Positions 26,863-64,000 of a stretch of 64,000 nucleotides of DNA are shown here, in pieces. Source of the DNA: Shinella yambaruensis (GTDB lineage: Bacteria; Pseudomonadota; Alphaproteobacteria; Rhizobiales; Rhizobiaceae); contig NZ_JALJCK010000019.1 in the NCBI RefSeq assembly GCF_022899355.1, positions 1 through 64,000 on the forward strand, written 5' to 3'. The stretch's first letter is position 1. Each line of letters opens with the position of its first letter. A model generated the notes under the pieces. That model made no database searches and was not told the DNA's origin. It was given only the letters and a program-made list of their open reading frames with translations. The position numbers were made by a program, and so were the translations under genes.

Positions 26863-27828
26863 TCAGAGCGCAAGGCTCGTCTCCCGGCCGACCCGCCCGA
26901 TCTGCGTATGGGACGTCTTCTTCATCGCCTTCGGGGTCGTGCCGAACTGCTTGCGGAACGCCGCGGCGAAGTGGCCGAGATTGGTGTAGCCGACCTGGTT
27001 CGCCACCGTCGTCACCGACTGCTCGCCCGCCAGCAACGCGCTGCGCGCAACGATCATCCGCCGTTCCTTGAGATAGCCGAAGGGCGTCGTGTCGAAGAGG
27101 ACCTTGAAGCCCTTCTTGAGCTTGAAATCGTTGATGCCGACCTCATGGGCGAGCGCCACCAGCGAGGGCGGATCGGAGAGGTTCTCGCTGAGGATATCGC
27201 GCGCCCGCTTCAGCCGCTCGATATCGCCCGGTGAAAGGGCGCAATCGCAATGGGCCATGCACAGCCGCTCGAGGCCAAGCGCGATCAGCTCGTAGGCCTT
27301 GCTGGTCAGGAAGACCGAGCGCAGGGGCTCGCTGACCTGTGCGGTAGCCATCTGGTGCAGCACGGCCTGAATGGAGGCGGACGGCAGGATTTCGCGGCTG
27401 AGCCCGCGCGCGCCGTCGCCGGCGAGAAACATCCGGATCGCCTCCGGGCAGGCCGCACTGAAGACGCGGCTCATATAAGCGTGCGGCAGGCCGACGATGA
27501 CGACGGAGAGCGCCTCATCGCGCCCGACCGTCGCCGGTTCGGCCGAAAAACCGTTCGAGACGAGCGCCGCCTCGCCGCTGCCGAAGGCAATCCCGCGCTG
27601 CCCGGCCCGCCCGGGCAGGGTGAGCGTGCCGGCAACGACGAAAACCATCGCCGATCCGCGTCGCGGCAGCGCCAGCGGCAGGTCGCAACCCGTATGGGCC
27701 GCGCCGCTCACCATGGTAAGGCTGATGCCGTGATCGAGATGCACGACTTCGGTGCGGATGCCGAACGCCTCTTCGCAATCGGCACTGTCGAAAACCTTGA
27801 TGTCTTCGCGCTGTCTGGTCTGCATCAT
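26863..27828 (-). CDS. AraC-family regulator, PchR/YbtA-like
   Basis: The 321-residue protein has a C-terminal AraC domain whose first helix-turn-helix reads SLVALAHEVGINDFKLKKGFKVLFDTTPFGYLKERRM. This wording is typical of PchR, YbtA and related siderophore regulators. The second helix-turn-helix is SVTTVANQVGYTNLGHFAAAFRKQFGTTPKAM. PchR-type proteins bind the ferric siderophore in the cell and activate synthesis and uptake genes, recognising repeats upstream. Candidate repeats lie at 37337 and 55044. ATG 27828 follows GAGGTG. It is adjacent to the permease and receptor genes, as in pyochelin and yersiniabactin loci. Confidence 0.9.
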   Translation of the reverse strand: MMQTRQREDIKVFDSADCEEAFGIRTEVVHLDHGISLTMVSGAAHTGCDLPLALPRRGSAMVFVVAGTLTLPGRAGQRGIAFGSGEAALVSNGFSAEPATVGRDEALSVVIVGLPHAYMSRVFSAACPEAIRMFLAGDGARGLSREILPSASIQAVLHQMATAQVSEPLRSVFLTSKAYELIALGLERLCMAHCDCALSPGDIERLKRARDILSENLSDPPSLVALAHEVGINDFKLKKGFKVLFDTTPFGYLKERRMIVARSALLAGEQSVTTVANQVGYTNLGHFAAAFRKQFGTTPKAMKKTSHTQIGRVGRETSLAL

Positions 27829-27908
27829 GGGACACCTCACGCATTATGGAAGAAGGGACAGAGTCTTCCCGCTGGCATTGGCATCGGCATTTCCCGGCCC
27901 GCGCGCCT

Positions 27909-29141: not shown

Positions 29142-29166
29142 TTCGGTCCTCGTCTTTCGTTTTCAC

Positions 29167-29190
29167 CGGCCCGGGCACTGGCCCGGGCCG
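29167..29190. terminator. Hairpin between receptor and permease genes
   Basis: CGGCCCGGGC pairs perfectly with GCCCGGGCCG around ACTG. There is no T-run on the leftward side, so it may attenuate rather than stop transcription between receptor and permease. Confidence 0.55.
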
Positions 29191-29210
29191 TCATTTCTTC
29201 AGGGTGGCGA

Positions 29211-31499
29211 TCAGAACCTGGTCGTGATGCCGAGGCCGATCGTGCGGCCGCGCGAGACCAGGACGGAGTTGATGTTCGCCGTCATATGCGCGCCCTGCTG
29301 CTCCAGCCGGTCGCCGATGAGGTTTTCGCCGAACACATAGAATTCCGTCTGGTCGATCTTCAGGCCCACCCGCGCATCGATGATGTGCTGGGCGTCGAGA
29401 TCGAAATTGTTGCCGGTGTCGCCGGCGCGCTTGCCGACGAAACGGTAGCCGAGATAGCCGGTGAGCATCGGATCGCCCGACATGTTGAGGAAGTCCGCCT
29501 CGCCCTGGTAGGTGAGGCCGAGATTGGCCGACCAGAGCGGCACGTTCGGCACCTCGTTGCCGACCTTGGCCTGCAGGACGCCGCCCGCCGGGATACCGGT
29601 GATCTCCGAATGGGTGAGCGTGACGCCGGCGAAGACGCCGAAGCCGTTGTCGAACTCCTTGCGGACCTCCGCCTCGACGCCATAGGTCTTCAGGTCGAAG
29701 TTCTCGATCGGGAAGGTCATGGTCGCCGGGTCGAAGCCGAAGATCGCCTCGTCCGTCACGTCGTTGTAGAAGCCGGCGACGGCGAAGCTCGTGCCGCTGT
29801 CGATGAGGTCGCCCTTCCAGCCCACTTCATAGGTCCAGATCGAGGTGGCGTCGTACCCGTCTTCCGGCAGGCCGATCGCGGCATTGCCGGTGAAGCGCGG
29901 GAAGCCGCCCGCCTTGTTGCCGCGGCTGACGCTGCCGTAGATCAGGTTCTCGTCGTTGAGCTTGTAGCTGAGCGAGACGCGGCCGGAGAACATGTCGAAG
30001 TTGCGCGCGCTGTCCTGCGCGAAGCTCGCCACCGTGCCCGGGAAGCCGGTGCCCGTGTAGAGGGCGTCGATCTTCTTGCGTTCATGGGTGTAGCGCAGCC
30101 CCCCGCCGATCTCGAAGCGTTCCGCGAAAGGCTGGGCGATGTCGAAGAAGATCGCCGAGGACGTCGAGGTGAGGTTGACGTCGCGCGTGCCGTTGATCGA
30201 GGCCGACATGGTCGAGGTCCCGAAGGCATCTTCATGGAAATCGTTATAGGAGAAGACGCCGCCGACCACCCACTTCGTCTCCGAATCGTCGAGCGATTGC
30301 AGGCGGACTTCCTGGTAGAACTGGCTTTCGCGCTGGTCCGTGACGTTGAACTCGCCGTCATTGGTGTAGAATTCCGGCGGAATGACCATGCCGAACGCGC
30401 CGAAGGTGGCGCTGTTGATGTAACCGTCCGAATTGTCGGTCCAGTTGTAGATGTCGTAATAGGTGAAGCCCGTCGTGGTCTTCAGCGCGAAGGTCTCGAA
30501 ATCGTGCGAGGTGTTCAGCGTGACATAGCCGAGGTCGCGCCTGAACTCGGGCGTCTCCTGATAGGCGTGGCTGTCGCGCAGGAGGTACGGATAGCCGGTG
30601 TCGCCGTCGTATTTCTCGTAGCCGAGCGTGAGCTTGACCTCCGTCGTATCGCCCGGCGTCCAAAGCAGGGTGCTCTTGATCGCGCCGACGTCGAAGCCGC
30701 CGATGTCCTTCTCGCCGGGATGATCGTTTTTGACGTAGGCCCCGCGGCCCTGGTAACGCACGGCGAAGCGGCCGAAGAGCTCCTCGTTGATCGCGCCGCC
30801 GAGGATGAACTCGCCCTTGCGGTAGCCCTCGGTGCCGACTTCCGCGGTGATCTGGCGGATCGTCTCCGCATCGGGAACCATGCTCGTGATGTTGATCGCG
30901 CCGCCCGTCGAGTTGCGGCCGAAGAGCGTGCCCTGCGGCCCGCGCAGCACGTCGATCTGGCCGACGTCGAGCATCTGCCCGCTTGCCGCGAAGGCCGGCA
31001 TGGGCACGCCGTCGATGATGGTCGGCGCGGTCGAGTTGTCGGGCGACAGCAGCGTCGAGAGCGTGCCGACGCCGCGCACGATCGGCTGGGCGGTGCGCGG
31101 ATCGTCACCGTAATTGGGGATCTGTAGGCCGACGACGCGGTCCGAAAGATCCTGCACGTCGTTGATCCGCTCGTTCGTCAGCTTCTGGTCCGTCACCACG
31201 GAGACGCTGACGGGCACGTCGAGCGGGTTTTCGGCATAGCGGCGGGCTTCGACGGTGATCGCCTCCAGCGTGGTCGAACCGTCGGCGGCCTGGGTCTGGC
31301 TCGTCGTCACGCGGTCGGTCTTGTCCTCCTCGCGCACGTCCTGCGCCAGCGCCGAGCCCGCCGCAGCCATCGTCACCGTGAAGACGACGCCGGCCAGAAG
31401 CCGCGCCCGCCGGGTCGGCGCGCCGATCCGTTTGACGCCGGTCGCCGCATGGGTGCGGGCGAGGAAGGTGCGACGCGGTTCAGTCTGTGCGGGCGGCAT
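29211..31499 (-). CDS. TonB-dependent outer-membrane metallophore receptor, FyuA-like
   Basis: At 762 residues this is a full-length TonB receptor. A long signal peptide ends near residue 52 (AAAGSALA-QD), and the TonB box is ITVEA at 81-85. A plug domain contains VRGVGTLSTLLSPDNSTAPTIIDGVPM and QIDVLRGPQGTLFGRNSTGGAINI. The beta-barrel ends in an aromatic residue (GITTRF), as required for BAM insertion. It is likely the receptor for the product of the neighbouring PKS/NRPS genes. An arginine pair with TFLAR at residues 9-15 in the leader is unusual. Confidence 0.93.
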   Translation of the reverse strand: MPPAQTEPRRTFLARTHAATGVKRIGAPTRRARLLAGVVFTVTMAAAGSALAQDVREEDKTDRVTTSQTQAADGSTTLEAITVEARRYAENPLDVPVSVSVVTDQKLTNERINDVQDLSDRVVGLQIPNYGDDPRTAQPIVRGVGTLSTLLSPDNSTAPTIIDGVPMPAFAASGQMLDVGQIDVLRGPQGTLFGRNSTGGAINITSMVPDAETIRQITAEVGTEGYRKGEFILGGAINEELFGRFAVRYQGRGAYVKNDHPGEKDIGGFDVGAIKSTLLWTPGDTTEVKLTLGYEKYDGDTGYPYLLRDSHAYQETPEFRRDLGYVTLNTSHDFETFALKTTTGFTYYDIYNWTDNSDGYINSATFGAFGMVIPPEFYTNDGEFNVTDQRESQFYQEVRLQSLDDSETKWVVGGVFSYNDFHEDAFGTSTMSASINGTRDVNLTSTSSAIFFDIAQPFAERFEIGGGLRYTHERKKIDALYTGTGFPGTVASFAQDSARNFDMFSGRVSLSYKLNDENLIYGSVSRGNKAGGFPRFTGNAAIGLPEDGYDATSIWTYEVGWKGDLIDSGTSFAVAGFYNDVTDEAIFGFDPATMTFPIENFDLKTYGVEAEVRKEFDNGFGVFAGVTLTHSEITGIPAGGVLQAKVGNEVPNVPLWSANLGLTYQGEADFLNMSGDPMLTGYLGYRFVGKRAGDTGNNFDLDAQHIIDARVGLKIDQTEFYVFGENLIGDRLEQQGAHMTANINSVLVSRGRTIGLGITTRF

Positions 31500-31646
31500 T
31501 CGATACTCCAGTCGAATGGGCGAAGTGCACCGGCGCGGACCAAAAGGCCCACGGTCGGCTTCGCTTCGCGGTTTGAAATCAAAGGAAGATTATTGTCTCG
31601 GCTCCGGCATCGCCATAGGGCGGGTTTATGCCGGCGGGCAGTTTCC

Positions 31647-32645
31647 TTATGCGTGCGGATAAATCTCGCCGCGCGTCAATTGTCCCGGCGAATAACCGAA
31701 ATAGCGCTGGAATGCGGTCGAGAAATTGCTGCCATGGCGGTAACCGGCGAAGTGCGCCGCCTGGGTCACGGTCCAGCCGTCGCGTTCCAACCCGTCGCGC
31801 GCCTTCTCCATGCGCACGTCATGCAGGAAGGCGATGACGGACTGGCCGTAGACTTCGCGGAACTTGATCTTCAGGCTGGAAACGCTGACGCCGGCCTCGC
31901 GGGCGAGCGAGGTGAGGCTGTGCTCGGCCCCGGGTTCCGACATCATCAGGTCGCGGATGCGCGCCATGCGCATGCGGTCGTTGCCCCTGACATGCGAGCG
32001 CTCGTCGGGACCCTCCCGGCCGGCGGCCTGGATGGCGAGGGCCACGACCTCCAGCGTGTAGCTTTCGACGAGCAGGCAGCCCACCGTGCCGCACAGTTGC
32101 GGATTGAAGAGCTGGCCGCAGAGCGCGCTCATGCGCACGCCCGTGCCGAAGGGAACGATCTCGCTGCTGCGCGTGCGTGCATCGACGAAATCGGCGAGAT
32201 TGGCCTCGGCGATCACCTCGGGCCGAAGCTGGATCAGCATGGACTTGCAGCGATGGCCGCGGCTGTAGCGACCGGTGGTACGTACGTCGTCGGCGAAGGA
32301 GAAGAACGCGGCCTCGCCCGGTTGCAGCACCATGGTCTGGCAGCCGTTGCCCGGATTGAACTCGGAGGGCCGGCCCTCCAGCGACAGCACGATGGAGAGC
32401 GAGCGCGGAAAGATCGCCGAATGGTCGCTGTCGCTCAGCGCCGTCATCTGCGCGGTGCTGAGATTGATGCCCGTGCTCAGCTCGCGCAACCCCAGCCAGC
32501 CTTCGAAGAGCGGGCTTTCCTCGTCGCCGCCGGCCTTTTGCGTCAAAAGCGCATAGTCGTCACAGAACACCATCGACGCCTTGGAGAAATCCCGCGCGGA
32601 AACCGCAGGTCGATGCGCTTGAGAATGATCCGACAATCCCGTCAT
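31647..32645 (-). CDS. AraC-family transcription regulator
   Basis: The 332-residue protein has a cupin-like N-terminal half (NPGNGCQTMVLQPGEAAFFSF) and a C-terminal AraC domain (SLTSLAREAGVSVSSLKIKFREVYGQSVIAFLHDVRMEKA; TVTQAAHFAGYRHGSNFSTAFQRYFGYSPGQL). It is also of the PchR-like type but distinct from the regulator at 26863. It lies 147 bases before the receptor gene and may activate it. Confidence 0.9.
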   Translation of the reverse strand: MTGLSDHSQAHRPAVSARDFSKASMVFCDDYALLTQKAGGDEESPLFEGWLGLRELSTGINLSTAQMTALSDSDHSAIFPRSLSIVLSLEGRPSEFNPGNGCQTMVLQPGEAAFFSFADDVRTTGRYSRGHRCKSMLIQLRPEVIAEANLADFVDARTRSSEIVPFGTGVRMSALCGQLFNPQLCGTVGCLLVESYTLEVVALAIQAAGREGPDERSHVRGNDRMRMARIRDLMMSEPGAEHSLTSLAREAGVSVSSLKIKFREVYGQSVIAFLHDVRMEKARDGLERDGWTVTQAAHFAGYRHGSNFSTAFQRYFGYSPGQLTRGEIYPHA

Positions 32646-32693
32646 CTACGACAACCCGTTCAAGGTGGAACCGCTTGGAGCATAGACGAATGC

Positions 32694-32728
32694 AACCGCC
32701 GGATCGGACCACGGCCGTTCCGGCGGTT
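32694..32728. terminator. Hairpin between TetR and AraC genes
   Basis: AACCGCCGGA pairs with TCCGGCGGTT around a 15-base loop in the 200-base gap after the TetR gene. It may end the leftward ABC-TetR transcript. The A7 run at 32788-32794 is upstream on that strand. Confidence 0.5.
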
Positions 32729-32847
32729 GATGCGCCGCCATGTCGCAGACACTAAGTCATGAATTTGCATTTAGCAATAAACATGACAAAAAAACTCCAG
32801 ATATATAACCCGCCGCGGAAGATCGGGCCATGCCGGGCGCTTCGCGG

Positions 32848-33560
32848 TCAGCCGTTTCCGCCCTGCGCGTCTGGCGGGCGCAGCGTCGCGGCTCCCGCAA
32901 GGATCACCTCCAGCTTGCGCCGCCACCATTGTCGCGGATGGCTGCGCAGGACCTCCGCCATGGTGTTGAGCGCGGTGGCGATCGACGCGTCGATCCTGCC
33001 CGCCTCGCTCCACGCGCCTGCGACCTTCTCGCCGAGCGTGTCGCCCTCCTCGCGCGGCTGCTGGAGGCTCTGCCAGGCGGAGACGCTTTCCGTCGTCATG
33101 TCGATGATCATGTCGACGACGAGGGCGGCATCGGACGTCGAAAAACCGAGGGCTTCAAGCCGGCGCACCGCTTCGGCGAAGGCCTCTATGCCGGACTGAG
33201 GGGTGTTGCCCAGCCGCCCCAGCACCTGTGCGAGGCCCGGATGGGTTTCGTAGAGGTCCCACACGGCCTCCGCCATGGTCCTGAGGTAATCCTGCCAGTC
33301 CTCTGTCTCGGATCGCCAGTCGAGCCGGCCGATCGCGAGGTCGGCCGCCGCGAGCAGGATATCGTCCCGGCTCCTGGCGTGGCGATAGAGCGAGGAATGG
33401 TCGACGCCGAGGCGGGCGGCGATCCGCACCAGCGTCGCCCCGTCGAGGCCGATGTCGAGGGCCGCCACCGCGATCGCCTCACGCGAGATAAGCGCCGGGC
33501 GTCCGGGACGGGCCTCTCCCTCCACGCCGCCGCGCGGCGCGCGCTTGCGTCCCGTCGTGC

Positions 33561-33564
<4 letters not shown>
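32848..33564 (-). CDS. TetR-family transcription regulator
   Basis: The 238-residue regulator has the TetR helix-turn-helix (ALISREAIAVAALDIGLDGATLVRIAARLGVDHSSLYRHARSRDDIL) and a longer C-terminal ligand domain (TetR_C-like, W- and L-rich). It overlaps the ABC gene at 33561 by four bases and is therefore cotranscribed with the two half-transporters. It may repress the uptake genes or sense the metallophore; the ligand is unknown. Confidence 0.9.
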
Positions 33565-35362
<1,798 letters not shown>

Positions 35363-35366
<4 letters not shown>

Positions 35367-37201
35367 TGCGCCGCCTCCGGCATCCTGTTTTCCCCGGTGA
35401 AGGCGGCCGAACGCACCGCTTCCCAATCCGCCCACAGGTCGGCATAGAGGCCGCGCCGGTGCAGCAGGGCGTCATGGCCGCCGCGCTCGGCCACACGGCC
35501 CTCCGACAGGACGACGATCTCCGACGCCGCCGCGATGGTGTGAAGCCGATGGGCGACGACGATCAGCGTGCGGCCCTGGGCAAGCGCGCTGATCCCCGCC
35601 TGGATGGCCGCCTCGCTGTCCGGATCGGCAAAGGCCGTCGCCTCGTCGAGCACGATGATCGACGCATCCTTCAGGATGGCACGGGCGATGGCGATGCGCT
35701 GGCGTTCACCGCCGGAAAGTTGCACGCCACGGCTGCCGATAGCTGTGTCATAGCCCTGCGGCAGGGCCGAGATGAAGCCGTCCGCCTGGGCCGCCCGCGC
35801 CGCCGCACGCACCTCCTGCCGGCTCGCGCCCGGCCGGGCGATCGCTATGTTGGCGGCGATCGTATCGGAGAACAGGAAGACGTCCTGGAAGACGAAGGCG
35901 ATCTCGTCCATCAGCTGCGCCGTCGGGATGTCGCGCAGGTCGACGCCGCCGAGCGTGATGCGCCCGGCGGCGACATCGTTGAACCGCGCGACGAGCGTCG
36001 CCGCCGTGCTCTTGCCCGAACCGGACGGGCCGACCAGCGCCGTGACCACGCCGGCGCGCGCTGTGAAGGACACATCCCGCAGCACGAGGCGCTCGCCATA
36101 GGCAAAGGAAACATTGTCGAAAACCACATCGCGGCCGGAAAACGCCACGCGACATGCCGCCTCCGGCTGGGCCGGCGTCGCCAGCAGGTCCTCCACCGCC
36201 CGCGAGGCGACGGAAATCTGCGCGAGATGCTGGAACAGCGCGAAGAGTTTCATCAGCGGCAGGCTGTAGCCCGCGCCGAGAATGACGAAGAAGACGAAGG
36301 TCGCGACATCCAGCGTGCCGGCCGCCATGAGCCAGAGGCCCGCCGGCAGGATCAGCGTGATATTGGCAAGGACGAGCGCGTTGAACGCCCCGCCGAGCGG
36401 CACATAGGCCCGCGTGATCTCCGTTTCGATGCGCACATAGTCGCGCACGGCGGCCGCCGCCCCGGCGAGGCTCTCGCCGCTGCGGTTGAAGATCTTCACC
36501 ACCGGCATGCCTGCGACATATTCCACCACGGCGGCGTTCATGCGCGCGCTCGCCCCCTGGAACGCCGGCACCTTGCGCGCGGAGCGCAGCATGGCGATGC
36601 CGATCAGCAGGAAGGAGAGCGGCGTCAGGAACACCGAGGCGAGCGCCATGCGCCAGTCGACGGCAAAGAGCCAGGCGGAGACCGCGAGCCATGTGACGAC
36701 GGCACCCGTGCCCTCCGGGATGCCGTGCGCCGCGATCATCTCCAGCCGCTCCGGCTCGTCGATGACCAGCGCCTTCGCCTCCCCGCCGGTGCGGGCGGAA
36801 AGCCAGCCGAGCGGCAAACGCGAAAGATGCGCCGCGACGGCGAGGCGCAGGTTGCGGATGACGCCGAAGGCGGCGGCATGGCCTTTGGCGACGGCGGCTG
36901 CCTGCGCCGCGTGGCCGAGCAGGACGACACCGGCGGCAAGCCCCGCCGACGACAGGACGGAAGAAAGCGACACGGTGCCCTCGATCACCGAAACGACGAC
37001 CCGCCAGACGATGTAGAGCGGCACAAGCTCGAAGGCGGCGGCGAGCGTGGCGAGCAGCATCGACAGGACGATGGCGCGCCGCGCGCCGCCGGCATGGCCG
37101 AGCAACAGGCGGAAGCTCGAAAGGTAGTCCACCCTTTCTTGCGCGCCGGCCGGCCGACAGGTCCGTCCGCGCCGCGCCGTTTGCGTTTCGTCACACTCCA
37201 T
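35363..37201 (-). CDS. ABC half-transporter, partner of the preceding protein, YbtP/YbtQ-like
   Basis: The 612-residue protein has a membrane domain at about residues 40-330 and an ABC domain with GPSGSGKST, LSGGERQRIAIARAI, IIVLDEATAFAD and VAHRLHT. ATG 37201 is preferred because GGGAG lies upstream; an in-frame ATG at 37264 exists. It heads the leftward uptake transcript, divergent from the first PKS/NRPS gene with 290 bases between, so both sets can share iron- or metallophore-dependent control. Confidence 0.92.
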
Positions 37202-37336
37202 CACGCACTCCCGGGCACACAGGCTGACGGCAGCACTAAACGGCTCGGCGACATTTTGCAACATACTGTTTCAAATTCTCCATGGCGCTACTCGCAAGAC
37301 TTGTTTTCCTCAACACTTTCAAGGTCGTAAATCGAA

Positions 37337-37377: not shown

Positions 37378-37493
37378 CCTAATTCGCTCCTCTGCGGAGC
37401 GGTCCGTACCCGGCGCTTCATTGTTTAAGGGACAACAGACCCGCGACCGCCGGCCGGCGGCGCGTGAACGAGTGCCGGACTGCGGAGAACGCC

Positions 37494-54335: not shown

Positions 54336-55032
54336 GCTCGGCAAGAACCGCCCCGAGGTCGCCGGCGTTCTCGCAAACAGCGATCTCGGGCACCGAACCA
54401 TCGGCGGCGACGGCGAGCACATGCCCGTCGCCCAGCCGACGCCAGACGCCGGAAAAATGATCCGCGGGAAGGCGCGCCGCGAACCCTGCACCCTCTGCCG
54501 TCACGGTCACGCTCTCCGGCGGAATGGCGAAGCCCGCGCCATGCGCCTTGAGAGCGGCTTCCTTCGCCGTCCAGATCTGCTGGTGACCAATGGCGCTCGC
54601 CGCGATCTCGGACGGCGCGAGGAACGAGGCGGCGATCTCGTCCCAGAAATGCTGCGGCCGGTCTGCCTCCACATCGACGCCGATCCGGCCCGACCGGGAC
54701 AGCGCCACGGCCACCCAGCCGCCGCCATGGGAAAGATTGAAATCGAGCGAACCCGTATCGACAAGGAACGGTTTGCCCCCGGGCCTGCGCGAAAAGGATA
54801 GGCTGGCGGGATTTCGCCCCGTCGCCGCGCTGAGCAGCCGCCGCACCAGCCCATGCGCCGCGCGATACCGCTCCGTATCCTCCGGCTTCAGGAAACGCCC
54901 CGCCTGGGATCGCTCGGCGGAATCCAGCACGGCGTCCGGATCGAAGCTGCCGAGAACGGCGGAAACCGGCATGGCGATGGCGACGCCCGCGCACAGCCAT
55001 TCTCCATCCGCCGTCTTCGACCACTCGAACAT
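54298..55032 (-). CDS. 4'-phosphopantetheinyl transferase, Sfp/EntD-like
   Basis: The 244-residue enzyme loads phosphopantetheine from CoA onto carrier proteins of the PKS/NRPS line. FNLSHGGGWVAVALSR, GVDVEADRP and the metal/catalytic WTAKEAALKAHGAG are the family motifs. It is leftward between the two rightward biosynthetic blocks; its 3' end overlaps the OsmC gene by 38 bases in the opposite direction. Confidence 0.93.
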   Translation of the reverse strand: MFEWSKTADGEWLCAGVAIAMPVSAVLGSFDPDAVLDSAERSQAGRFLKPEDTERYRAAHGLVRRLLSAATGRNPASLSFSRRPGGKPFLVDTGSLDFNLSHGGGWVAVALSRSGRIGVDVEADRPQHFWDEIAASFLAPSEIAASAIGHQQIWTAKEAALKAHGAGFAIPPESVTVTAEGAGFAARLPADHFSGVWRRLGDGHVLAVAADGSVPEIAVCENAGDLGAVLAELSRLDPAMRASR

Positions 55033-55129: not shown

Positions 55130-55252
55130 CCGGATCACATATTCATAAATTGAATCATCCACTTAACCGTGGAATGCAGACATGTGCCCGATGATTGACC
55201 CTGCTCTCTCGAAAATCCTCGCCCCGGCACAGCCGAAGCACGGGCCATCCGC

Positions 55253-58200
55253 GTGACCGGCGTGGCGGCGCACGACATGCAAGAGGTTTCGGAAGCAATG
55301 GACGAACGGGTCGCCGTCATCGGCCTCGCCGGCCGCTTTCCCGGCGCGCCGGATGTGCACGCCTTCTGGAAGATGCTGGAGGCCGGCGCGTCGGGCCTTA
55401 CACAGGTGGAAAGCCGGCCGGATGTGGTCGGTGCACGCTTCGCCCTTGCCGACAAGGAATGCTTCGACGCCGCCTTCTTCGGCTTCGCGCCCTCCGAAGC
55501 GGCTTTGATGGACCCGCAGCAGCGCGTCTTCCTCGAAACCGCCTGGCACGCCATGGAGGACGCCGGCTACGGCGAGGGCGAGGGCGGGCGCGTGACCGGC
55601 GTCTTCGCCGCCGCCGGGTTCGGCGACTATGTGCTGCGGCATGTCGGCCTGCGCTCCTATGCCGACAGCGCCGCCGACTATTTCGCCATGCTGATCGGCA
55701 ACGACAAGGATTTCCTCGCCTCCCGCGTCGCCTACCTGCTCGACCTGAAGGGGCCGGCCGTCGTCGTTCAAAGCGCCTGCTCCAGCGGGCTGCTCGCCGT
55801 CCACCAGGCCGTCCAGTCGCTGCTGTCGCGCGAGATCGACATGGCGCTCGTCGGGGCCGTCTCCATCTCGATGGACATCGAAGAGGGCTATCATGCCGAT
55901 CCCGGCGGGCCGATGTCGCCGACCGGCAAGATCGCGCCCTTCAGCGCGGGCGCGAACGGCATCGTCGGCGGCAACGGCGTCGCTGCCCTCGTCCTGAAAC
56001 GCCTCGGCGAGGCCGAGCGGGACGGCGATTTCATCTACGCGGTCATCGAGGCCAGCGCCGCCAACAACGATGGGCGTGAGCGCGGGAATTTCACCGCGCC
56101 GGGCGTTGCCGGTCAGAAGCGGGTGCTTTCCGAGGCGCTCGGCCTCAGCGGCCTTTCCCCCGCCGACGTCAGCTATATCGAGGCCCACGGCACCGGCACG
56201 CCGATCGGCGACCCGATCGAGATGGAGGCCATTCGCGCCGTTTACGGCGACGGCGACGCGCCATGCCTCGTCGGCTCGGTCAAGGCGAATACCGGCCATC
56301 TCAACACGGTGGCCGGGCTCGCCGGCCTCATCAAGGCCATCGGTGTCGTGCGCACCGGCACCGTGCCGCCGACACTCAACTTCACCACGGCCAATCCGCT
56401 GCTGGATCTTGCCGGCTCGCGCTTTTCCATCTGCGATCGCCCGACACGCCTTCCGCCCGCCGAGCGCCATGTCGCGGCCGTCAGCTCCTTCGGCTTCGGC
56501 GGCACCAATGTACACATGCTGCTCTCCAGCCCGCCCCGCCGCGATGCGATCGCGACGGAGGAGCCCGCGCTTCTCTGCTGGTCCGCCCGCACGCCGGATG
56601 ACCTTGCGGCCATGGAACGATCCCTTGCCGCCGTCTGGACCGCCGACAGCGGCGCAAGCCTCGTCGATCAGGCCGGGACGCTGCTGTTCGGCCGCCGGCA
56701 CTTTCCGCACCGCCGGGCGCTCACGGCCCGCAACCCCGCGGAGGCGCTGCGCAAGCTGGAAGCCGGCGCCGCCACCCATTCTGCCATGGCCGCACCTAGC
56801 CGGCCGATCTTCATCTTCCCCGGCCAGGGCACGCAATTCGCCGGCATGGGCAGCCCCTTCCACGACAGCCTGCCGGTCTACCGCGAGACGCTGGACCTTT
56901 GCGCCGCCCTGACCGAACCGATGCTGGGGGAGGACATCCGCCCCCTGATCTTCGGCACCGAGGACGACGCGCTGAAGCCGACGCTGGTCACGCAATTCGC
57001 CCTGTTCGCGACGGAATACGCCCTCGCCCGCAGCCTGATGGCGGCCGGCCTCACGCCTGCGGCGCTGCTCGGGCACAGCATCGGCGAATATGTCGCCGCC
57101 TGCCTTGCCGGCGTCTTTTCGCTGGAGGACGCGCTGCGGCTCGTCCATGCCCGCGCGCGGCTGATGTCACGCCTGCCGGCGGCCGCCATGCTGTCCGTTC
57201 ATGCCGGAAGGGAAGCGCTCGTACCCTATCTGCGGGACGGCAGCATATCGCTCGCCGTCGTCAACCGCCACGATCGCTGCGTCGTCTCCGGTGCGCCCGA
57301 AGCCCTCGGCATCCTTGCGGAGACGCTCGCCGCCGAGAGCATCGCGACGCGCATGCTGGCCGTCTCGCATGGCTTCCATTCCCACCTGATGGAACCGATC
57401 CTCGAGGAGTTTGCAGCGGCCTGCAGTACCGTAGCCTTCGCTGCACCATCGATCCCCGTGCTCAGCAACACCAGCGGCGATGTCGCGGCCGCAACGGAGA
57501 TCACCACCCCGGATTACTGGGTCCGGCATCTGCGCCAGACCGTCCGCTTCTCCGACGACGTCGCCAGCCTCGCCCGCCTGTGGCCCGGTGCGACCTGCCT
57601 GGAGCTCGGCCCCGGCACGAGCTGCACCGCCGCCGTCACGGGCGCCGCCGCGGATCTTCGCGCCCTGCCGACACTCGCCTCGAACGCCTCGCAGGCGGAA
57701 GACCTCCTGTCGGCGCTCGGCCGGCTCTGGGTAGAGGGGCACGACGTCGACCCCGACCTCCTGATGCTGCACCGCGCCTGGCGGCGCACGCCGATGCCGG
57801 GCTATCCCTTCCAGCGCGTGGCCCATCTGCTGCCGCAGATAGAGCCGGGGCGGGAAAGCATGGCGAACCGGCCGCGGGTCCTGCCGCCCGACGAATGGTT
57901 CCATGCCCCGCAATGGCGCACGCTGGCCTTGCCGAAAACGCCCTCGACGCCGGACCGCGGGCCACGCGTGCTCTTCCTGCCCGAGGGCGAGGCGGGGCCG
58001 GCCGGCCTCGGCGATATCCGCATCCATCCCGGCGAACACTATGCCGCGCTGCCGGACGGCGGGTTCCGGCTTCGTCCGGGACATGCCGGCGACTTCTTAA
58101 AGCTTGCCGACACCTTGCAGGCGCGCGGCGTCACCGGCGCGGATTGCCTCTTCGGCTGGCTGATGGACGAGAAGGCCGACGCCCGAACGCATGGCCATGA

Positions 58201-59632
58201 CAGCCTCGTGCGCCTTGTCCAGGCCTTTGCCCCCGCCGGCCTTCTCTCCCATATTGTGCTCTGCACGCGCACGCTGGCCGCGCTCTGCGGCGACGAGGCG
58301 CCCGATGCGGAGCAGGCGCTTGCCCTCGGGGTTCTGAGAGCGATCCCGTTCGAGCAGGCCGGCCTTCGTGCAACCTGGCTGGATGCCGACCGGCTCCCCG
58401 CTCAGCCCGACCTCGATCGGCTGGAGGCGGTAGAGATCGCAGGCGGCCTGCACGCGGGTGCCTTCGCCCTGCGGCGCGGCCGTTTCTGGCGGAGGGACGT
58501 TCCGCCGGTCGCGCTTGCGCCGGCGACGCTTCCCGACGTCATCCGCCCCGGCGGAACCTATCTCGTCGCCGGCGGCAATGGCGGGCTCGGCCGCCGCCTG
58601 GTCCAGGCGCTCGCGGCCGAGGGCCGCCATGTCGTGGTGATCGCCCGTTCGCTCGACGAAGACGCCCCGAATTTCGCCGAATGCCGGCGAAACGGCGGCC
58701 GTCTCACCCTTATACGGGGTTCTGCCGCAGACCGGGATCTTCTGCGCTCCGTCGCCGCAAGGCTCGTCGCGGCGGGCGAACGGCTCGATGGCATCTTCAA
58801 CCTCGCCGGCCGCTACATCTCCCAGACGATCGCGGACATGACGCTCACGGCGACGGACGGCAATCGTGCCGCGAAGGTCGAAACGACGCGCGCGCTCCTC
58901 GACGTCTTCGGTCCAATGGAACCGGATTTCCTCGTCGCCTTTTCCTCGCTCGCCGGCGAAACCTCGGGCTACGGCAACAGCGACTACATGGCCGGCAACC
59001 TGTTCCTCGATTTTCTTGCCGAAAGCCGCGGGCCAGGCCCGCGCCTCGTCAGCATCGGCTGGGACAATTGGCGGGAAGGCGCGTTCGGGGCCGCGCAGGA
59101 CGACGGAAAGGCGCTTTTCGCCGGTGCGGCGGCCGACGCCATCGGCGTCGAGGCGGGCCTTGCCGCCCTCTGGCGGATCATCGCGAGCGGCCTCTCCCAT
59201 GTGATCGTCACGCCACGCAATCTCGACGACCGCCTGCGGGAAACGAGCGAGGCCGCCCGGCAACGCCTGGAGCGCATGGCCACGCCTGCGCAGCCGGCCA
59301 CCATCGTGGCGGACGAAGGCTCCCCGCAGGAACAGGCAGTACGGCTGCTGTTCGCGCAGACGCTGGGCCTTCCGGGCGTCGCCCCCACGGACGACTTCCT
59401 GCAGCTCGGCGGCGATTCCATCCTCGCCGTCCGCTTCCTCTCGAAACTGCGCCGCATCTTCCAAGTCGATCTGGGGCTGCCGGATTTTCTTTCGAACCGG
59501 ACGGCCGCCCTCCTGTCGCGCCGGCTGGAAGCCGTCGCCGGGACGGAGCAGGTCGCCCTCGCCTACCTCCATATTCACGCCCTCCCGGACGCCGAGCGGC
59601 AGACGCTCGCGCGCCAGGTCGCCACAGCCTGA
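55253..59632 (+). CDS. Type I PKS module: KS-AT-KR-ACP
   Basis: The 1,459-residue protein has KS (15-435; Cys176 in QSACSSG, His in EAHGTGTP and NTGHLN). AT (~520-820) has Ser609 in GHSIGE and a HGFH motif that suggests malonyl-CoA. KR (~1095-1290) has GGNGGLG at 1107 and Tyr1245. ACP has Ser1389 in LGGDSI. It adds and reduces one malonate unit to a beta-hydroxy group. There is no methyltransferase, dehydratase or TE. GTG 55253 is the longest plausible start; ATG 55298 (MDERVAVIGL) begins right at the KS and is an alternative. The C-terminus hands over to the Cy protein that follows. Confidence 0.93.
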   Translation: MTGVAAHDMQEVSEAMDERVAVIGLAGRFPGAPDVHAFWKMLEAGASGLTQVESRPDVVGARFALADKECFDAAFFGFAPSEAALMDPQQRVFLETAWHAMEDAGYGEGEGGRVTGVFAAAGFGDYVLRHVGLRSYADSAADYFAMLIGNDKDFLASRVAYLLDLKGPAVVVQSACSSGLLAVHQAVQSLLSREIDMALVGAVSISMDIEEGYHADPGGPMSPTGKIAPFSAGANGIVGGNGVAALVLKRLGEAERDGDFIYAVIEASAANNDGRERGNFTAPGVAGQKRVLSEALGLSGLSPADVSYIEAHGTGTPIGDPIEMEAIRAVYGDGDAPCLVGSVKANTGHLNTVAGLAGLIKAIGVVRTGTVPPTLNFTTANPLLDLAGSRFSICDRPTRLPPAERHVAAVSSFGFGGTNVHMLLSSPPRRDAIATEEPALLCWSARTPDDLAAMERSLAAVWTADSGASLVDQAGTLLFGRRHFPHRRALTARNPAEALRKLEAGAATHSAMAAPSRPIFIFPGQGTQFAGMGSPFHDSLPVYRETLDLCAALTEPMLGEDIRPLIFGTEDDALKPTLVTQFALFATEYALARSLMAAGLTPAALLGHSIGEYVAACLAGVFSLEDALRLVHARARLMSRLPAAAMLSVHAGREALVPYLRDGSISLAVVNRHDRCVVSGAPEALGILAETLAAESIATRMLAVSHGFHSHLMEPILEEFAAACSTVAFAAPSIPVLSNTSGDVAAATEITTPDYWVRHLRQTVRFSDDVASLARLWPGATCLELGPGTSCTAAVTGAAADLRALPTLASNASQAEDLLSALGRLWVEGHDVDPDLLMLHRAWRRTPMPGYPFQRVAHLLPQIEPGRESMANRPRVLPPDEWFHAPQWRTLALPKTPSTPDRGPRVLFLPEGEAGPAGLGDIRIHPGEHYAALPDGGFRLRPGHAGDFLKLADTLQARGVTGADCLFGWLMDEKADARTHGHDSLVRLVQAFAPAGLLSHIVLCTRTLAALCGDEAPDAEQALALGVLRAIPFEQAGLRATWLDADRLPAQPDLDRLEAVEIAGGLHAGAFALRRGRFWRRDVPPVALAPATLPDVIRPGGTYLVAGGNGGLGRRLVQALAAEGRHVVVIARSLDEDAPNFAECRRNGGRLTLIRGSAADRDLLRSVAARLVAAGERLDGIFNLAGRYISQTIADMTLTATDGNRAAKVETTRALLDVFGPMEPDFLVAFSSLAGETSGYGNSDYMAGNLFLDFLAESRGPGPRLVSIGWDNWREGAFGAAQDDGKALFAGAAADAIGVEAGLAALWRIIASGLSHVIVTPRNLDDRLRETSEAARQRLERMATPAQPATIVADEGSPQEQAVRLLFAQTLGLPGVAPTDDFLQLGGDSILAVRFLSKLRRIFQVDLGLPDFLSNRTAALLSRRLEAVAGTEQVALAYLHIHALPDAERQTLARQVATA

Positions 59633-59643
59633 GACGGAACGTC

Positions 59644-62600
59644 ATGTCGAGCAGCAGCACAGCCCTCTCCTTCGATCCGGCGCTTCTGAGCCGGCTCCTC
59701 GGCGTCGAAGCAGGCGCGGCACCGCCACAGCAGCGCACGGAGGACATTCAAACGCCCTTCCCGCTGACGGAGATCCAGCGCGGCTACCTGCTCGGCCGCG
59801 ATTCGTCGCTGCCGCTCGGCGGCGCGGCCTGCCAGTTCTACTACGAGCTGGATTGCGAGACGCTCGACATCGCGCGCTACCGGGCGGCATGGGGCATCGT
59901 GATGGCGCGCCACCCGATGCTGCGCGCCCGCATCCTCGACGCGACGCGCCAGGAGATCGCCGAAACCATGCCGGAGCTGGAGATCGTCGTGCGCGATCTG
60001 AGCGACGACGAGGCGCGGGACGCGACGATCGACGCCATTCGCCGGCGCCTCGCGCGCGCCCTTCCGGCGCAGGACCGCTGGCCGATGATCGATGTGGAGC
60101 TCAGTCTCCTGCCGGCCGGCCGCGTGCGTGTCCATCTGCGCTTCGACCTCCTGATTGCCGACCAGCAGAGCATCCTCATCCTTCTCGACGAAGTAGCCCG
60201 CTTCTACCGCGATCCGGACCTTCACCTGCCCACGCCCGACATCACCTTCCGCGACTGCGTGCTCAGCGAGCCGGACGAGGCCGATCTCACCCGCGCCCGC
60301 CGCTATTGGCGGGAGCGCGCAGAAAGTCTGCCGGATGCGCCGGCCCTGCCGGTGATCGCGCCCCCGAACGAGGCCGGCACGCCGGTCTACGACCGCCTCT
60401 CGCACACCGTCGACAAAACGCGGTGGGACCGTCTCAAGGCCACGGCGGCGACGCTCGGCGTCACGCCCTCGACCACGCTGCTCTCGCTGTTCGGCGAAGC
60501 GCTCTGCGCCTTCGCGGCCGACCCGCATTTCTGCCTCAACATGACGCTCTTCAACCGGCCGCCGATCCACCCGGATGTCGATCGCGTGGTCGGCGATTTC
60601 ACCACCAACATGCTGTTCGAGGCCGATCTCCGGCAGGCCGAGACCCGACGCGCCCGCTTTACCCGGCTCCAGGCGCTGCTCTGGCGCGACATGGAGCACA
60701 GCCTGGTCAGCGGCACGGCCGTCACCCGCGAAATGGCCGTGGCGCGTGGCCATCTCGACCGCCCCCTGATGCCCGTCGTCTTCACCAGCACGCTGACGCA
60801 GAACGACACGCGCCTCTATTCCGACGCCGCCGCCCAGCCGGGTGAGCCGGTGCTGGCCCTTTCCCAGACGCCGCAGGTCATGCTCGACAACCAGGTGATG
60901 GAATGGTCCGGCGCGCTGACGATCAACTGGGACATCGCCGTCAACGTGCTGGACATCGCCGTCGCCCGACCGCTCTTCGACCGCTTCGTCACTCTCGTCG
61001 AAGCCGTCGCCGCCGATCCGGCCATGCTGGAGGAGACGGTGGGCGGACGCGCCGACCCGTCCGAAGCGCTGATCGCCCCGGCGATCGTATCGGAAGCCGA
61101 GCGGCGCGAACGGCTCGCCGACCTGTGGCTGCGCGCCCTGCCGGACGCGATGGAGCGACCCGCGATCGCCACGTCGGGCATTGTGCTGACCCATGGGGCG
61201 CTCGCCCGGCAGGTGGCGGGAATCGCAAACGCCCTCGTTGTCGCCGGCGTCCGCCGCGGCGAGACGGTGGCGATCCGCCTCGAAAAATCGCCGGAACAGA
61301 TCGCCGCCTGCCTCGCCGTCGCGCTCGTCGGCGGCGTCTATGTGCCGCTGGACACGGCTCAGCCGCTCGCCCGCCAGGCCCGCATCCTCGAAGATCTCAC
61401 ACCGGCCGCCATGCTGGAGCGCGGCGCGACTCCCGACGCCCTTGCAACCGGCGCGCCGGCCGCGACGATCGACCTTTCCCGTCTTGGCGAAGGCGACCCC
61501 GCGCTGTTGCATCACCTCGCCGGTGCGCAGCCGGATGATCCCGCCTACATCATCTATACGTCCGGCTCGACCGGAAACCCCAAGGGCGTGACGGTGACGC
61601 ATGCGGCGGCCGTGAACACGATCGCGGATGTCAGCCGGCGCTTCGGCATCGGCGGCGCGGATTGCGTGCTCGGCCTTTCGCAGCTTCACTTCGACCTCTC
61701 GGTCTACGACATTTTCGGCGTGCTCGGCGCCGGCGGTACGCTCGTCCTGCCCAATCCCGCCGAACAGCAGAACCCCGCCCATTGGCACGCGCTCGCGACC
61801 CGCCATGGCGTGACGCTCTGGAACAGCGTTCCCGGGCTCTTTTCGCTCTATGTCGACTATCACGAGGTCGCAGGCATCGCGCCGCCGCCGGCGCTGAAGA
61901 CGGTGATGCTGAGCGGCGACTGGATCGGCCTCGACCTGCCGGGCCGCGCCCGCCGGCTCTGGCCGGAGGCCGCACAATACAGCCTCGGCGGCGCGACGGA
62001 GGCGGCGATCTGGTCGATCTTCCATGCCATCGACGAGGTCGATCCGGCCTGGACGAGCATCCCCTACGGCCGGGCGCTCGGCCGCCAGCAGGTCTTCGTC
62101 CTCGACGACGACCTCGCCATCGCGCCGATCGGCCATACCGGCGATCTCTACATCGCCGGCGACGGGCTCGCGCTCGGCTATCTCAACGATGCGGAAAAGA
62201 CGGCCGCGCACTTCTTCCCCCATCCGCGCACGGGCCTCGCCCTCTACCGGACGGGTGACCTCGGCGCCTATGACCCTGACGGCGCGATCATCTTCCAGGG
62301 ACGCGCCGACACGCAGGTGAAGATCAACGGTTTTCGCGTAGAGCCCGGCGAGGTGGCGCGCGCCCTGCAGCGGCATGCGGATGTCGAGGAGGCGCAGGTG
62401 CTCGCCGTGGGCGATCCGCGCCGGCCGCGGCTCGTCGCCTTCTTCCGGCCGGCCCGGGCAGGAGTCGGGGAAGCAGGGCTTGCGGCCCACCTCACCCAGG
62501 AATTGCCCGCCTACATGGTTCCCGCCGCGTTCAAGGCCGTCGATGCCTGGCCGCTTACGCCGAACGGCAAGCTCGATCGCAAGGCGCTCCTCGCCCTCGT

Positions 62601-63669
62601 GACGCAAGAGCCTGCCGCCACTCCTTCACGGCATCCACCGTCATCGGGCGCGGAGGTCGAGCGGGCGGTGCTGGAGATGGTCGCCGCGATCCTCCAGCGC
62701 CCCGACGTCTCGCTCGACGACAATCTGGTCCATCTCGGGGCCTCGTCGCTCGAACTGATCGCACTCGCCAACCGCATCGAGGCCTTCGCCGGCGCGCGCC
62801 CGCCCCTGACGGACCTCGCCCGCGCCGTGCGCCTGCCGGACCTCGTCGCCCTAGTGCAGGCGCTGGCGCCGCAAGGGGCGGCGCAGCCCGCCGAGCTCGT
62901 CGCCGGAGCCGCGGCCTTGCGCGCCCACCTTTCCCGCAACCCGGTTCTCACCGACCCGGTCGCCCGTCGCCTTTTCAAGAGCCGCCCCCGCCCGGTTGCC
63001 GCCGCCGAAGCACCGGTCTTCCTGTCCGGGGCAGCCGAGCCGCCCGCCGCGGCGGCACGACGCAGCTGGCGCGATTTCATCGACCGTCCGCTGACGACCG
63101 ACGAGCTTTCCGCCCTGCTCGCCCCGCTTCGCCGCCACTACAGGGATGGCGAGGAGCGCCGGCTCTACGCCTCGGCCGGCGGGCTCTATCCCGTCGAAAC
63201 CTATCTTGCCGTTCCGCCGGGCGGGATCGAGGACCTCGCGCCGGGCGGCTATCGCTACGACCCGCAGGCGCACGCCCTATCGCCCTGCACGGCGCCGGAC
63301 GGTTTTACGGACCTCGCGCTGCTCAGCTCCGGAAGCCGCGAGACGCTGGCCGCAAGCCGCCTCATCCTCTGCTTCGTGCTGTCGCTGGACGCCATCGCGC
63401 CGCTCTACGACGCCGCGAGCCTCGGCTTCGGGCTCATCGAATGCGGGGCGATGTGCCAGGCGCTCGAACAGCAGGCCGTCGGCCGGCCGTTCGGCCTTTG
63501 CCAGATCGGCGACCTGCCGCTCGACGAGATGGGCCGCCGCTTCGCCCTCTCGCCGGACCATGTCTGCCTGCATGCCATGGCCGCCGGCGCGCTGGAGCCG
63601 CAGGCGCGCGAACACTGGCTTTCCGCGACGACCGCCTATGTCCAGGACATGACGGAGGGCACGCTATGA
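59644..63669 (+). CDS. NRPS module with thiazoline oxidase: Cy-A(Cys)-PCP-Ox
   Basis: The 1,341-residue protein has a Cy domain (~35-470) with the intact DLLIADQQS at 168-176, GDFTTN, VFTS and QTPQVMLD. The A domain (~510-985) has TSGSTGNPKG and the code D-L-Y-N-M-S-L-I-W-K for cysteine. PCP Ser is 1035 in LGASSLE. A C-terminal SagB/McbC-type FMN oxidase domain (~1130-1330) has SAGGLYPVETYLAV, GGYRYDPQAHAL and LILCFVLSLDAI. Such domains, as in bleomycin and epothilone synthetases, oxidise a thiazoline to a thiazole on the carrier protein. The gene follows the PKS by 11 bases and is coupled to the next by ATGA. Confidence 0.93.
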   Translation: MSSSSTALSFDPALLSRLLGVEAGAAPPQQRTEDIQTPFPLTEIQRGYLLGRDSSLPLGGAACQFYYELDCETLDIARYRAAWGIVMARHPMLRARILDATRQEIAETMPELEIVVRDLSDDEARDATIDAIRRRLARALPAQDRWPMIDVELSLLPAGRVRVHLRFDLLIADQQSILILLDEVARFYRDPDLHLPTPDITFRDCVLSEPDEADLTRARRYWRERAESLPDAPALPVIAPPNEAGTPVYDRLSHTVDKTRWDRLKATAATLGVTPSTTLLSLFGEALCAFAADPHFCLNMTLFNRPPIHPDVDRVVGDFTTNMLFEADLRQAETRRARFTRLQALLWRDMEHSLVSGTAVTREMAVARGHLDRPLMPVVFTSTLTQNDTRLYSDAAAQPGEPVLALSQTPQVMLDNQVMEWSGALTINWDIAVNVLDIAVARPLFDRFVTLVEAVAADPAMLEETVGGRADPSEALIAPAIVSEAERRERLADLWLRALPDAMERPAIATSGIVLTHGALARQVAGIANALVVAGVRRGETVAIRLEKSPEQIAACLAVALVGGVYVPLDTAQPLARQARILEDLTPAAMLERGATPDALATGAPAATIDLSRLGEGDPALLHHLAGAQPDDPAYIIYTSGSTGNPKGVTVTHAAAVNTIADVSRRFGIGGADCVLGLSQLHFDLSVYDIFGVLGAGGTLVLPNPAEQQNPAHWHALATRHGVTLWNSVPGLFSLYVDYHEVAGIAPPPALKTVMLSGDWIGLDLPGRARRLWPEAAQYSLGGATEAAIWSIFHAIDEVDPAWTSIPYGRALGRQQVFVLDDDLAIAPIGHTGDLYIAGDGLALGYLNDAEKTAAHFFPHPRTGLALYRTGDLGAYDPDGAIIFQGRADTQVKINGFRVEPGEVARALQRHADVEEAQVLAVGDPRRPRLVAFFRPARAGVGEAGLAAHLTQELPAYMVPAAFKAVDAWPLTPNGKLDRKALLALVTQEPAATPSRHPPSSGAEVERAVLEMVAAILQRPDVSLDDNLVHLGASSLELIALANRIEAFAGARPPLTDLARAVRLPDLVALVQALAPQGAAQPAELVAGAAALRAHLSRNPVLTDPVARRLFKSRPRPVAAAEAPVFLSGAAEPPAAAARRSWRDFIDRPLTTDELSALLAPLRRHYRDGEERRLYASAGGLYPVETYLAVPPGGIEDLAPGGYRYDPQAHALSPCTAPDGFTDLALLSSGSRETLAASRLILCFVLSLDAIAPLYDAASLGFGLIECGAMCQALEQQAVGRPFGLCQIGDLPLDEMGRRFALSPDHVCLHAMAAGALEPQAREHWLSATTAYVQDMTEGTL

Positions 63670-64000
63670 GCCTCACGCAGCTTCTCGACGAGCTCGAACG
63701 CCACCGCATCCACCTCTGGGTCGAGGAGGGCCAGCTGCGCTTTCGCGCGCCCGCCGGCGCGATGACCGCCACCCTCAAGGCGAAGGTCGCGGAACAGAAG
63801 CAGGCGCTGCTCCAGCGGCTGTCGAACGCCGCCGGCGCAGAGGCCGATCGCTTCGCGCCCTTCCCGCAGACGCCGATCCAGCAGGCCTATCTCGTCGGCC
63901 GCACCGGCGCGCTCGACCTCGGCGGCGTCTCCGCCAACAGCTATCTCGAATTCGAGCACGACGCCGTCGACTTCAGCCATGCCGACGCCTGCCTCAACGC
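63666..64000 (+). CDS. NRPS, N-terminal part (docking-Cy), runs off the window
   Basis: The first 111 residues show a TubC-like docking domain (LTQLLDELERHRIHLWVEEGQLRFRAP), similar in plan to the NRPS at 46586, then the start of a Cy/C domain (FPQTPIQQAYLVGRTGALDLGG). The ATG overlaps the stop of the previous gene. Remaining domains, perhaps including the releasing TE or reductase, lie to the right of the window. Confidence 0.9.
   Translation, partial: MSLTQLLDELERHRIHLWVEEGQLRFRAPAGAMTATLKAKVAEQKQALLQRLSNAAGAEADRFAPFPQTPIQQAYLVGRTGALDLGGVSANSYLEFEHDAVDFSHADACLN

Follow-up and report, generated by a model that had tools for sequence, protein, structure and literature searches.

The described systems closest to the locus analyzed here are the lusichelin line (lus) of the cyanobacterium Lusitaniella coriacea, the photoxenobactin and piscibactin lines (pxb and irp), and the lines for yersiniabactin and pyochelin. 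In PMC12210259 (section 7), the lusichelin rings are ordered as a salicyl-thiazoline, a polyketide synthase (PKS) unit, a thiazole, a thiazoline, a second PKS unit, and a thiazoline. Thiocarboxylic and other odd termini are described for photoxenobactin and piscibactin in PMC9396620 and PMC12421891. In the former, S-acyl intermediates on a poorly cyclizing Cy domain were proposed to undergo a cysteine-beta-lyase-like cut or a hydroxylation, with no enzyme for C-S cleavage in the cluster according to its authors; in the latter, photoxenobactin E, with its thiocarboxylic terminus, was supported as the terminal product in Vibrio anguillarum. The locus reported here starts in a window of 64,000 nucleotides from Shinella yambaruensis (bases 1-64000 of the 87,537-base contig NZ_JALJCK010000019.1, in a 6.87-Mb genome), and very probably encodes a salicylate-capped poly-thiazoline metallophore line. 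It is distinguished by an altered last Cy domain, no fused thioesterase (TE) found, and a gene pair for a pyridoxal phosphate (PLP) enzyme and an OsmC-like protein.

The assembly line and its relation to described systems

The cluster spans 26863 to approximately 73741 on the contig, from an AraC gene to the end of NRPS1, and runs 9.7 kb past the window end. Isochorismate synthase, salicyl-AMP ligase, isochorismate lyase, most of the non-ribosomal peptide synthetase (NRPS) NRPS4, and the ArCP-Cy-A-PCP loader NRPS1 are found past the window. Relatives were located by scanning genome contigs with the 421-aa flavoprotein of the cluster as query, and five loci were returned. Four of these, at 63-76% flavoprotein identity, belong to Neorhizobium sp. 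JUb45, N. huautlense, Rhizobiales bacterium AFS080716, and Azospirillum agricola; they are the related loci below, and together with the Shinella cluster they form the five species compared. The fifth, in a Pseudonocardiaceae genome at about 30% identity, had no further cluster gene within its 21 kb. The biosynthetic genes are the following:

37464..46586, + strand: PKS1, KS-AT-KR-ACP-Cy-A(MT inserted)-PCP; A code DMFNMGIIVK, intact Cy motif
~46586..49933, + strand: NRPS2, TubC dock-Cy-A-PCP; Cys-type A code, altered Cy, no TE found
49930..50700, + strand: stand-alone (type II) thioesterase; GHSLG and GDH motifs kept in 5/5 species
52078..53292, + strand: PLP C-S lyase of the methionine gamma-lyase/cystathionine gamma-lyase group; 81-92% identity in 4/4 related loci
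53289..54335, + strand: tandem OsmC-like protein; Cys in domain 1, not in domain 2; 73-85% identity in 4/4 related loci
54298..55032, - strand: 4'-phosphopantetheinyl transferase, by annotation of a near-identical Shinella locus; in 2/4 related loci
55253..59632, + strand: PKS2, KS-AT-KR-ACP, by domain match
~59644..63669, + strand: NRPS3, Cy-A(Cys)-PCP-Ox; nitroreductase-type Ox (thiazoline oxidase), closest solved relative BmdC
63666..66968, + strand (window holds 63666..64000): NRPS4, TubC dock-Cy-A(Cys)-PCP, by Pfam domains on the contig read-on
66968-68185, beyond the window: isochorismate synthase, by annotation of the near-identical Shinella locus
68189-69841, beyond the window: salicyl-AMP ligase, just below the cut-off of the DHB-AMP ligase model
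69845-70192, beyond the window: isochorismate lyase, equivalog PRK07075
70196-73741, beyond the window: NRPS1, ArCP-Cy-A(Cys)-PCP, by Pfam domains

The whole cluster included six synthetases with five Cy domains, five A domains, and eight carriers. Pfam detected neither DH nor ER nor TE domains in these synthetases at E 0.001, and KR was the sole reductive-loop domain found in either PKS module. The Ox part of NRPS3 matched the thiazoline oxidase BmdC (7ly5, E 1.6e-16), which is a separate chain, whereas the homologous Ox is fused after the PCP in NRPS3. Among the salicylate enzymes, the lyase scored 149.5 on the PRK07075 equivalog (cut-off 126) and the ligase 695.8 on the DHB-AMP ligase model, just under its cut-off of 723.6. 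The A domains of NRPS1, 2, 3, and 4 read DL(Y/F/H)N(M/L)SL(I/V)WK in all five species, a code we take to be Cys-type, except that a frame break cost one NRPS3 row its final residue. The NRPS3 ortholog of Rhizobiales bacterium AFS080716 (G300:C43) was found in two reading frames, split near query residue 836. The A domain of PKS1, with its inserted MT, carried the code DM(F/Y)NMGIIVK in 5/5 species.

All of the parts listed in an earlier note on the window were recovered. Domain search located its HMWP1-like PKS/NRPS, Ox domain, and type II TE; its three Cy domains plus the start of a fourth correspond to PKS1, NRPS2, NRPS3, and then NRPS4 from 63666; and its two cysteine A domains correspond to the two Cys-type codes in the window, beside a third A domain with a different code in PKS1. 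The phosphopantetheinyl transferase it named is so annotated in the near-identical Shinella record. It had also pointed to the lack of a YbtU/PchG reductase, for which NCBIfam TIGR01761 gave no match genome-wide at E 0.001, and to an extra PKS module and Ox without the first methyltransferase of HMWP1, in agreement with the two PKS modules, the Ox, and the lack of such a methyltransferase in the cluster. The flavoprotein, the PLP lyase, and the tandem OsmC, although inside the window, were not mentioned in it.

Gene order and docking domains suggest the module order NRPS1 > PKS2 > NRPS3-Ox > NRPS4 > PKS1 > NRPS2, since the genes for the TubC-bearing NRPS2 and NRPS4 each come immediately behind that of the presumed donor (PKS1 and NRPS3, respectively). 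The isochorismate synthase and lyase would convert chorismate to salicylate, which the DhbE/YbtE-like ligase would activate for loading onto the NRPS1 ArCP; a cysteine added by NRPS1 would complete the hydroxyphenyl-thiazoline. PKS2 would then add one malonate, reduced to a beta-hydroxy unit, NRPS3 a cysteine to be oxidized to a thiazole by its Ox, NRPS4 a thiazoline, and PKS1 another beta-hydroxy malonate unit followed by an azoline bearing a C-methyl group, before NRPS2 loads the last cysteine. The predicted product is accordingly ordered salicyl-thiazoline-PK-thiazole-thiazoline-PK-(methyl)azoline plus one last cysteine, and the formula computed for the four-ring acid with KR-only PKS modules is C24H26N4O5S4 ([M+H]+ 579.086). 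The product sketch of the earlier note (two thiazolines, at least one thiazole, and two beta-hydroxy malonates) was too short, missing the salicylate starter and the fifth Cy because these genes lie past the window end.

The module content agrees with that of the lusichelin line, and the order suggested here would equal the published one; in PMC12210259 the lusichelin line comprises Sal-Cys, PKS, Cys with Ox (thiazole), Cys (thiazoline), PKS, and Cys(cMT), along with TonB, MFS, ABC, and AraC genes. In contrast to the KR-only modules found in Shinella, that text describes DH in the first lus PKS module and DH-ER in the second, and it ends the line in a type I TE with a proposed esterifying methyltransferase, whereas no fused TE was found here. 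The Shinella cluster additionally has one more Cys module, a two-enzyme salicylate route, and the PLP, OsmC, and flavoprotein genes, none of these last three being named in the portion of the lus text available, the comparison with lus being by description only. Photoxenobactin and piscibactin share the salicylate start and a tail of KS-AT-KR-T / Cy-MT-T / Cy-A-T without the first MT, and the PKS1 and NRPS2 tail resembles the PxbG modules (PMC9396620). As described there, the pxb line differs by a YbtU-type reductase, a TE on PxbG, fewer modules, no Ox, and a Cy4 with the first Asp of its motif, and the Cy-MT module of Shinella PKS1 also carries an A domain. Yersiniabactin and pyochelin share salicylate, Cy domains, AraC, a TonB receptor, a YbtPQ-like ABC pair, and a type II TE; the Shinella cluster differs in lacking a thiazolinyl reductase, a fused TE, and an extra domain in the NRPS1 A domain (Pfam), and in having an extra PKS, a thiazole oxidase, and the PLP/OsmC pair. 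The scaffold, considered likely to be new in the earlier note, is less new than proposed, given that the inferred module order equals that of lusichelins and that the tail resembles the one of photoxenobactin/piscibactin; what is unusual is the last Cy, the lack of any fused TE found, and the PLP/OsmC pair.

The last Cy domain and the release of the chain

The five Cy domains were compared across the five species, with residue names taken from PMC9547227 and mapped onto the rows by motif. All 20 rows of NRPS1, NRPS3, NRPS4, and PKS1 kept the Arg of helix 1, the two Asp and the Ser of DxxxxDxxS, Thr1753, the gating Phe1755, Arg1757, Thr1830, Asp1862, and Gln1864, and variation was seen in a Phe for Tyr1505 (PKS1 rows) and a Glu for the Asp of the GDF motif (NRPS4 rows). 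In contrast, the NRPS2 Cy was changed identically at six positions in 5/5 rows: the helix-1 Arg to Glu, the first Asp of DxxxxD to Arg, Thr1753 to Leu, the gating Phe1755 to Asn, and GDF to GNC. The copy of Shinella sp. WSC3-e likewise has Arg at the DxxxxD motif. The helix-1 Arg, first Asp, and gating Phe were present in all of the five solved Cy domains aligned. Thr1830, Asp1862, and Gln1864, which form the T/D/Q active site, were retained in NRPS2 in 5/5 rows. The domain seems re-tuned rather than decayed, because the first two changes resemble a reversed salt bridge, and it probably joins the last cysteine without closing the ring. When this Phe is mutated in other Cy domains, cyclodehydration drops severely (PMC9547227); the residue meant is the gating Phe1755.

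The PLP enzyme and the OsmC-like protein ranked first and second in identity in 4/4 relatives, at 81-92% and 73-85%, versus 58-73% for the synthetases. The PLP enzyme falls in the methionine/cystathionine gamma-lyase group and has SGTKY and LMRLSVGIE in 5/5 species, which hold the PLP lysine and the carboxylate-binding arginine. It reads YGG in 5/5, where both roseobacter methionine gamma-lyases of the set read YGC, with a Cys that we take to be the active-site position of methionine gamma-lyase. The OsmC protein is a fused tandem whose Cys is kept in domain 1 and not in domain 2: domain 1 reads SPNY where the second Cys is expected, and domain 2 is without the first, peroxidatic OsmC/Ohr proteins having two active-site Cys. 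Its OsmC domain scored 46 bits on the NCBIfam OsmC-related (seleno)protein model, under the cut-off of 95.

A tree of 19 rows was built from the five cluster PLP enzymes, three PLP enzymes encoded next to OsmC, two methionine gamma-lyases, and nine host paralogs. The cluster enzymes and the OsmC-adjacent ones of Roseovarius, Sulfitobacter, and Polaromonas formed one clade (support 100/100), separate from the two methionine gamma-lyases and the nine paralogs. In a plasmid collection, 1378 records had a PLP match; among the 25 best, nine were at 54% identity or more, with the next at 44.6%, and all nine directly adjoin an OsmC match, as judged from coordinates, from gene tables for four records, and by tblastn for Kocuria. 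An OsmC match was found in 11 plasmid records, and the two outside the nine are a Leisingera record, with no PLP gene within its 12.5 kb region, and an unannotated Vibrio record. Adjacent genes for a PLP C-S-lyase-like enzyme and OsmC thus recur in roseobacters, Polaromonas, Kocuria, and the Shinella cluster as a two-gene unit. Two roseobacter plasmids encode a methionine gamma-lyase, then the PLP-OsmC pair, and then a gene annotated as a DXS N-terminal-domain protein.

Release of the chain probably differs from that of the described lines because no fused TE was found. One tentative proposal is a dedicated off-loading by C-S cleavage, in which a re-programmed, non-cyclizing Cy would act together with the PLP lyase and its OsmC partner to yield a thiocarboxylic acid. 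The chain would be held as an S-acyl thioester on the cysteine of NRPS2 with the amine free, the PLP lyase would form an aldimine with this amine and cut the C-S bond to give a thiocarboxylic acid (C24H26N4O4S5) with a predicted [M+H]+ of 595.063, and the type II TE would clear the leftover. The lyase step itself is put forward with similar reserve. The complete line, which brings along genes for uptake, export, and regulation and runs through the odd last module, is likely.

Several points weigh against these proposals. An amide as the last bond would make a PLP aldimine on that cysteine impossible, since a free amine, and hence a thioester, is required. The PLP enzyme could have a role in general sulfur metabolism, and the nearest relatives found for it lie outside NRPS clusters. 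Thr1753 is Pro in two of the five solved Cy domains, and GDF also varies among them. The change of the first Asp is not decisive alone, as replacing it with Ala in photoxenobactin Cy4 only halved product 5 (PMC9396620). The NRPS2 Cy could still cyclize, given its kept putative catalytic T/D/Q and the swapped E/R pair, which may preserve the fold, and the PKS1 ring could be another azoline because the PKS1 A code is unlike the Cys code. No clear Fur box or rhizobial iron-response (IRO) box was found upstream in a promoter scan, and the product and its metal role are predictions.

The main rival for the tail, to which considerable weight is given though it falls short of probable, treats the PLP lyase and OsmC as a sulfur-supply or housekeeping pair, a cystathionine lyase giving cysteine and an OsmC guarding thiols, with the stand-alone TE hydrolyzing the chain to a carboxylic acid. 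The line needs four to five cysteines, the PLP enzyme is one of the cystathionine/methionine lyases and has Gly where the roseobacter methionine gamma-lyases carry Cys, the TE motifs are kept, and in two roseobacter plasmids the pair sits after a methionine gamma-lyase. Left unexplained, however, are the conserved alteration of the last Cy and the conservation of PLP and OsmC above the synthetases, and nine further enzymes of this PLP group are encoded elsewhere in the genome. This supply explanation is compatible with a second one, an unlikely five-ring acid (C27H29N5O5S5, predicted [M+H]+ 664.0845), for which NRPS2 would have to retain ring closure and form a fifth azoline. Retention of T/D/Q in NRPS2 agrees with such closure, as do the E-for-R and R-for-D swaps, which may restore a salt bridge; yet the gating Phe is lost in 5/5 rows while present in the five aligned solved domains, and its mutation severely impairs the reaction elsewhere, as cited above from PMC9547227. 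Rather improbable is a product that ends stably in an N-acyl cysteine whose thiol stays free (C27H31N5O6S5, [M+H]+ 682.0951) as a soft-metal ligand for copper or zinc, the thiol being kept in order by the flavoprotein and OsmC. A free thiol is what a condensing, non-cyclizing Cy would be expected to leave, and the related cyanobacterial metallophores fatuamide A and lusichelins bind copper, but no role would remain for the PLP lyase.

Flavoprotein, transport, and regulatory genes

The remaining genes and features of the cluster are the following:

26863..27840, - strand: AraC-family regulator 1, by domain match; ortholog in 4/4 related loci at 52-62% identity
27909..29141, - strand: MFS permease, RhtX/FptX-like by resemblance, below model cut-off; in 4/4 related loci
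29211..31499, - strand: TonB-dependent receptor, by domain match; in 4/4 related loci
31647..32645, - strand: AraC-family regulator 2, PchR/YbtA-like by position; in 4/4 related loci at 62-81%
32848..33564, - strand: TetR-family regulator; among the four related loci only in Azospirillum
33561..35435, - strand: ABC transporter (membrane and ATPase) at the YbtQ-like position; in 4/4 related loci
35363..37264, - strand: ABC transporter (membrane and ATPase) at the YbtP-like position; in 4/4 related loci
37386..37400, no strand: inverted repeat GCTCC-N5-GGAGC, candidate operator in the divergent abcP/PKS1 promoter
50715..51980, + strand: FAD/NAD(P)H flavoprotein; SidA/IucD/PvdA family monooxygenase in the record annotation

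The PchR-like regulator and YbtPQ-like pair of the earlier note were found as one of two AraC genes, PchR/YbtA-like by position, and as the ABC exporter pair. Of its FptX-like permease and FyuA-like receptor, the MFS and TonB genes are present, while the family labels are by resemblance: the permease scored 162 bits on the RhtX/FptX model (cut-off 356), and the receptor 140 bits on the TonB-siderophore model (cut-off 224). The repeat GCTCC-N5-GGAGC was mismatch-free at the same site of the divergent promoter in 5/5 species, and an AraC protein may use it as its operator. Allowing two mismatches, it had five matches in the window versus 5.95 in shuffles, being a weak pattern alone and no commoner than chance. 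As a Fur/IRO box candidate, TGA-N9-TCA occurred once each in two relatives, was not common to the others, and was rejected.

Profile searches with the flavoprotein returned weak flavoprotein matches only. At E 1e-15 and with at most four candidates scored per genome, matches were found in at least seven of 384 genomes of the class and at least 11 of 397 of the phylum, the strain's own genome not counted, two being common to both and at least 16 occurring in all. These distant homologs were rejected as cluster markers: none of ten contexts (of the 16) held another cluster gene, beyond generic ABC matches in two. A sugar-aminotransferase-type gene adjoins the homolog in five of seven scanned neighbourhoods. 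The relatives at approximately 27-33% identity form an uncharacterized family outside NRPS clusters, several next to DegT/DesI-type sugar aminotransferases.

Distribution and implications

The genes from the first AraC regulator to NRPS1 were all present, in the same order, in the four related loci except for the TetR regulator (1/4) and the phosphopantetheinyl transferase (2/4), and this synteny of the six synthetases and the salicylate genes spans two orders. A 4,970-base stretch (58700-63669) shared 96.6% identity with a plasmid (428 kb) of Shinella sp. WSC3-e, whose annotated copy has an identical gene set from TetR to NRPS1 (plasmid positions 12025-53068), and was also found on a second Shinella plasmid at 90.6% identity. 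The flavoprotein was present in one of 21 genomes of the genus, the strain's own, which was also the sole strong match among 297 genomes of the family, with two marginal ones (E 5e-4 and 9e-4). Three flank genes tested were absent from the 60-kb regions of all four relatives. This patchy presence, the plasmid location in WSC3-e, and the unshared flanks point to a transfer of the whole unit. Neorhizobium huautlense also has a second NRPS region (G298:C10:5461-31253) with high-scoring condensation domains.

An agrobactin/fabrubactin-type locus was considered and rejected, as an Agrobacterium plasmid and Bradyrhizobium NRPS regions were only about 42% identical to NRPS1 and had other gene content. 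No account of the cluster was found among the best-ranked 7-20 papers of each literature search of open-licence PMC, and within this literature the locus remains, as the earlier note held, an uncatalogued thiazole/thiazoline metallophore locus of a Rhizobiaceae genome. The words Shinella, Neorhizobium, and Azospirillum are all absent from the main text of the eLife metallophore survey (PMC12971057).

The cluster would extend to Alphaproteobacteria, in genera associated with soil and plants, a ring order for which the only description found comes from a marine cyanobacterium, and it offers precise masses to look for. The paired residue swaps of its last Cy domain form a natural experiment on condensation versus cyclization. 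If C-S-lyase off-loading is true, the PLP enzyme would be of the type that the photoxenobactin work proposed but did not find, and thiocarboxylates would be made without a sulfur-carrier protein.

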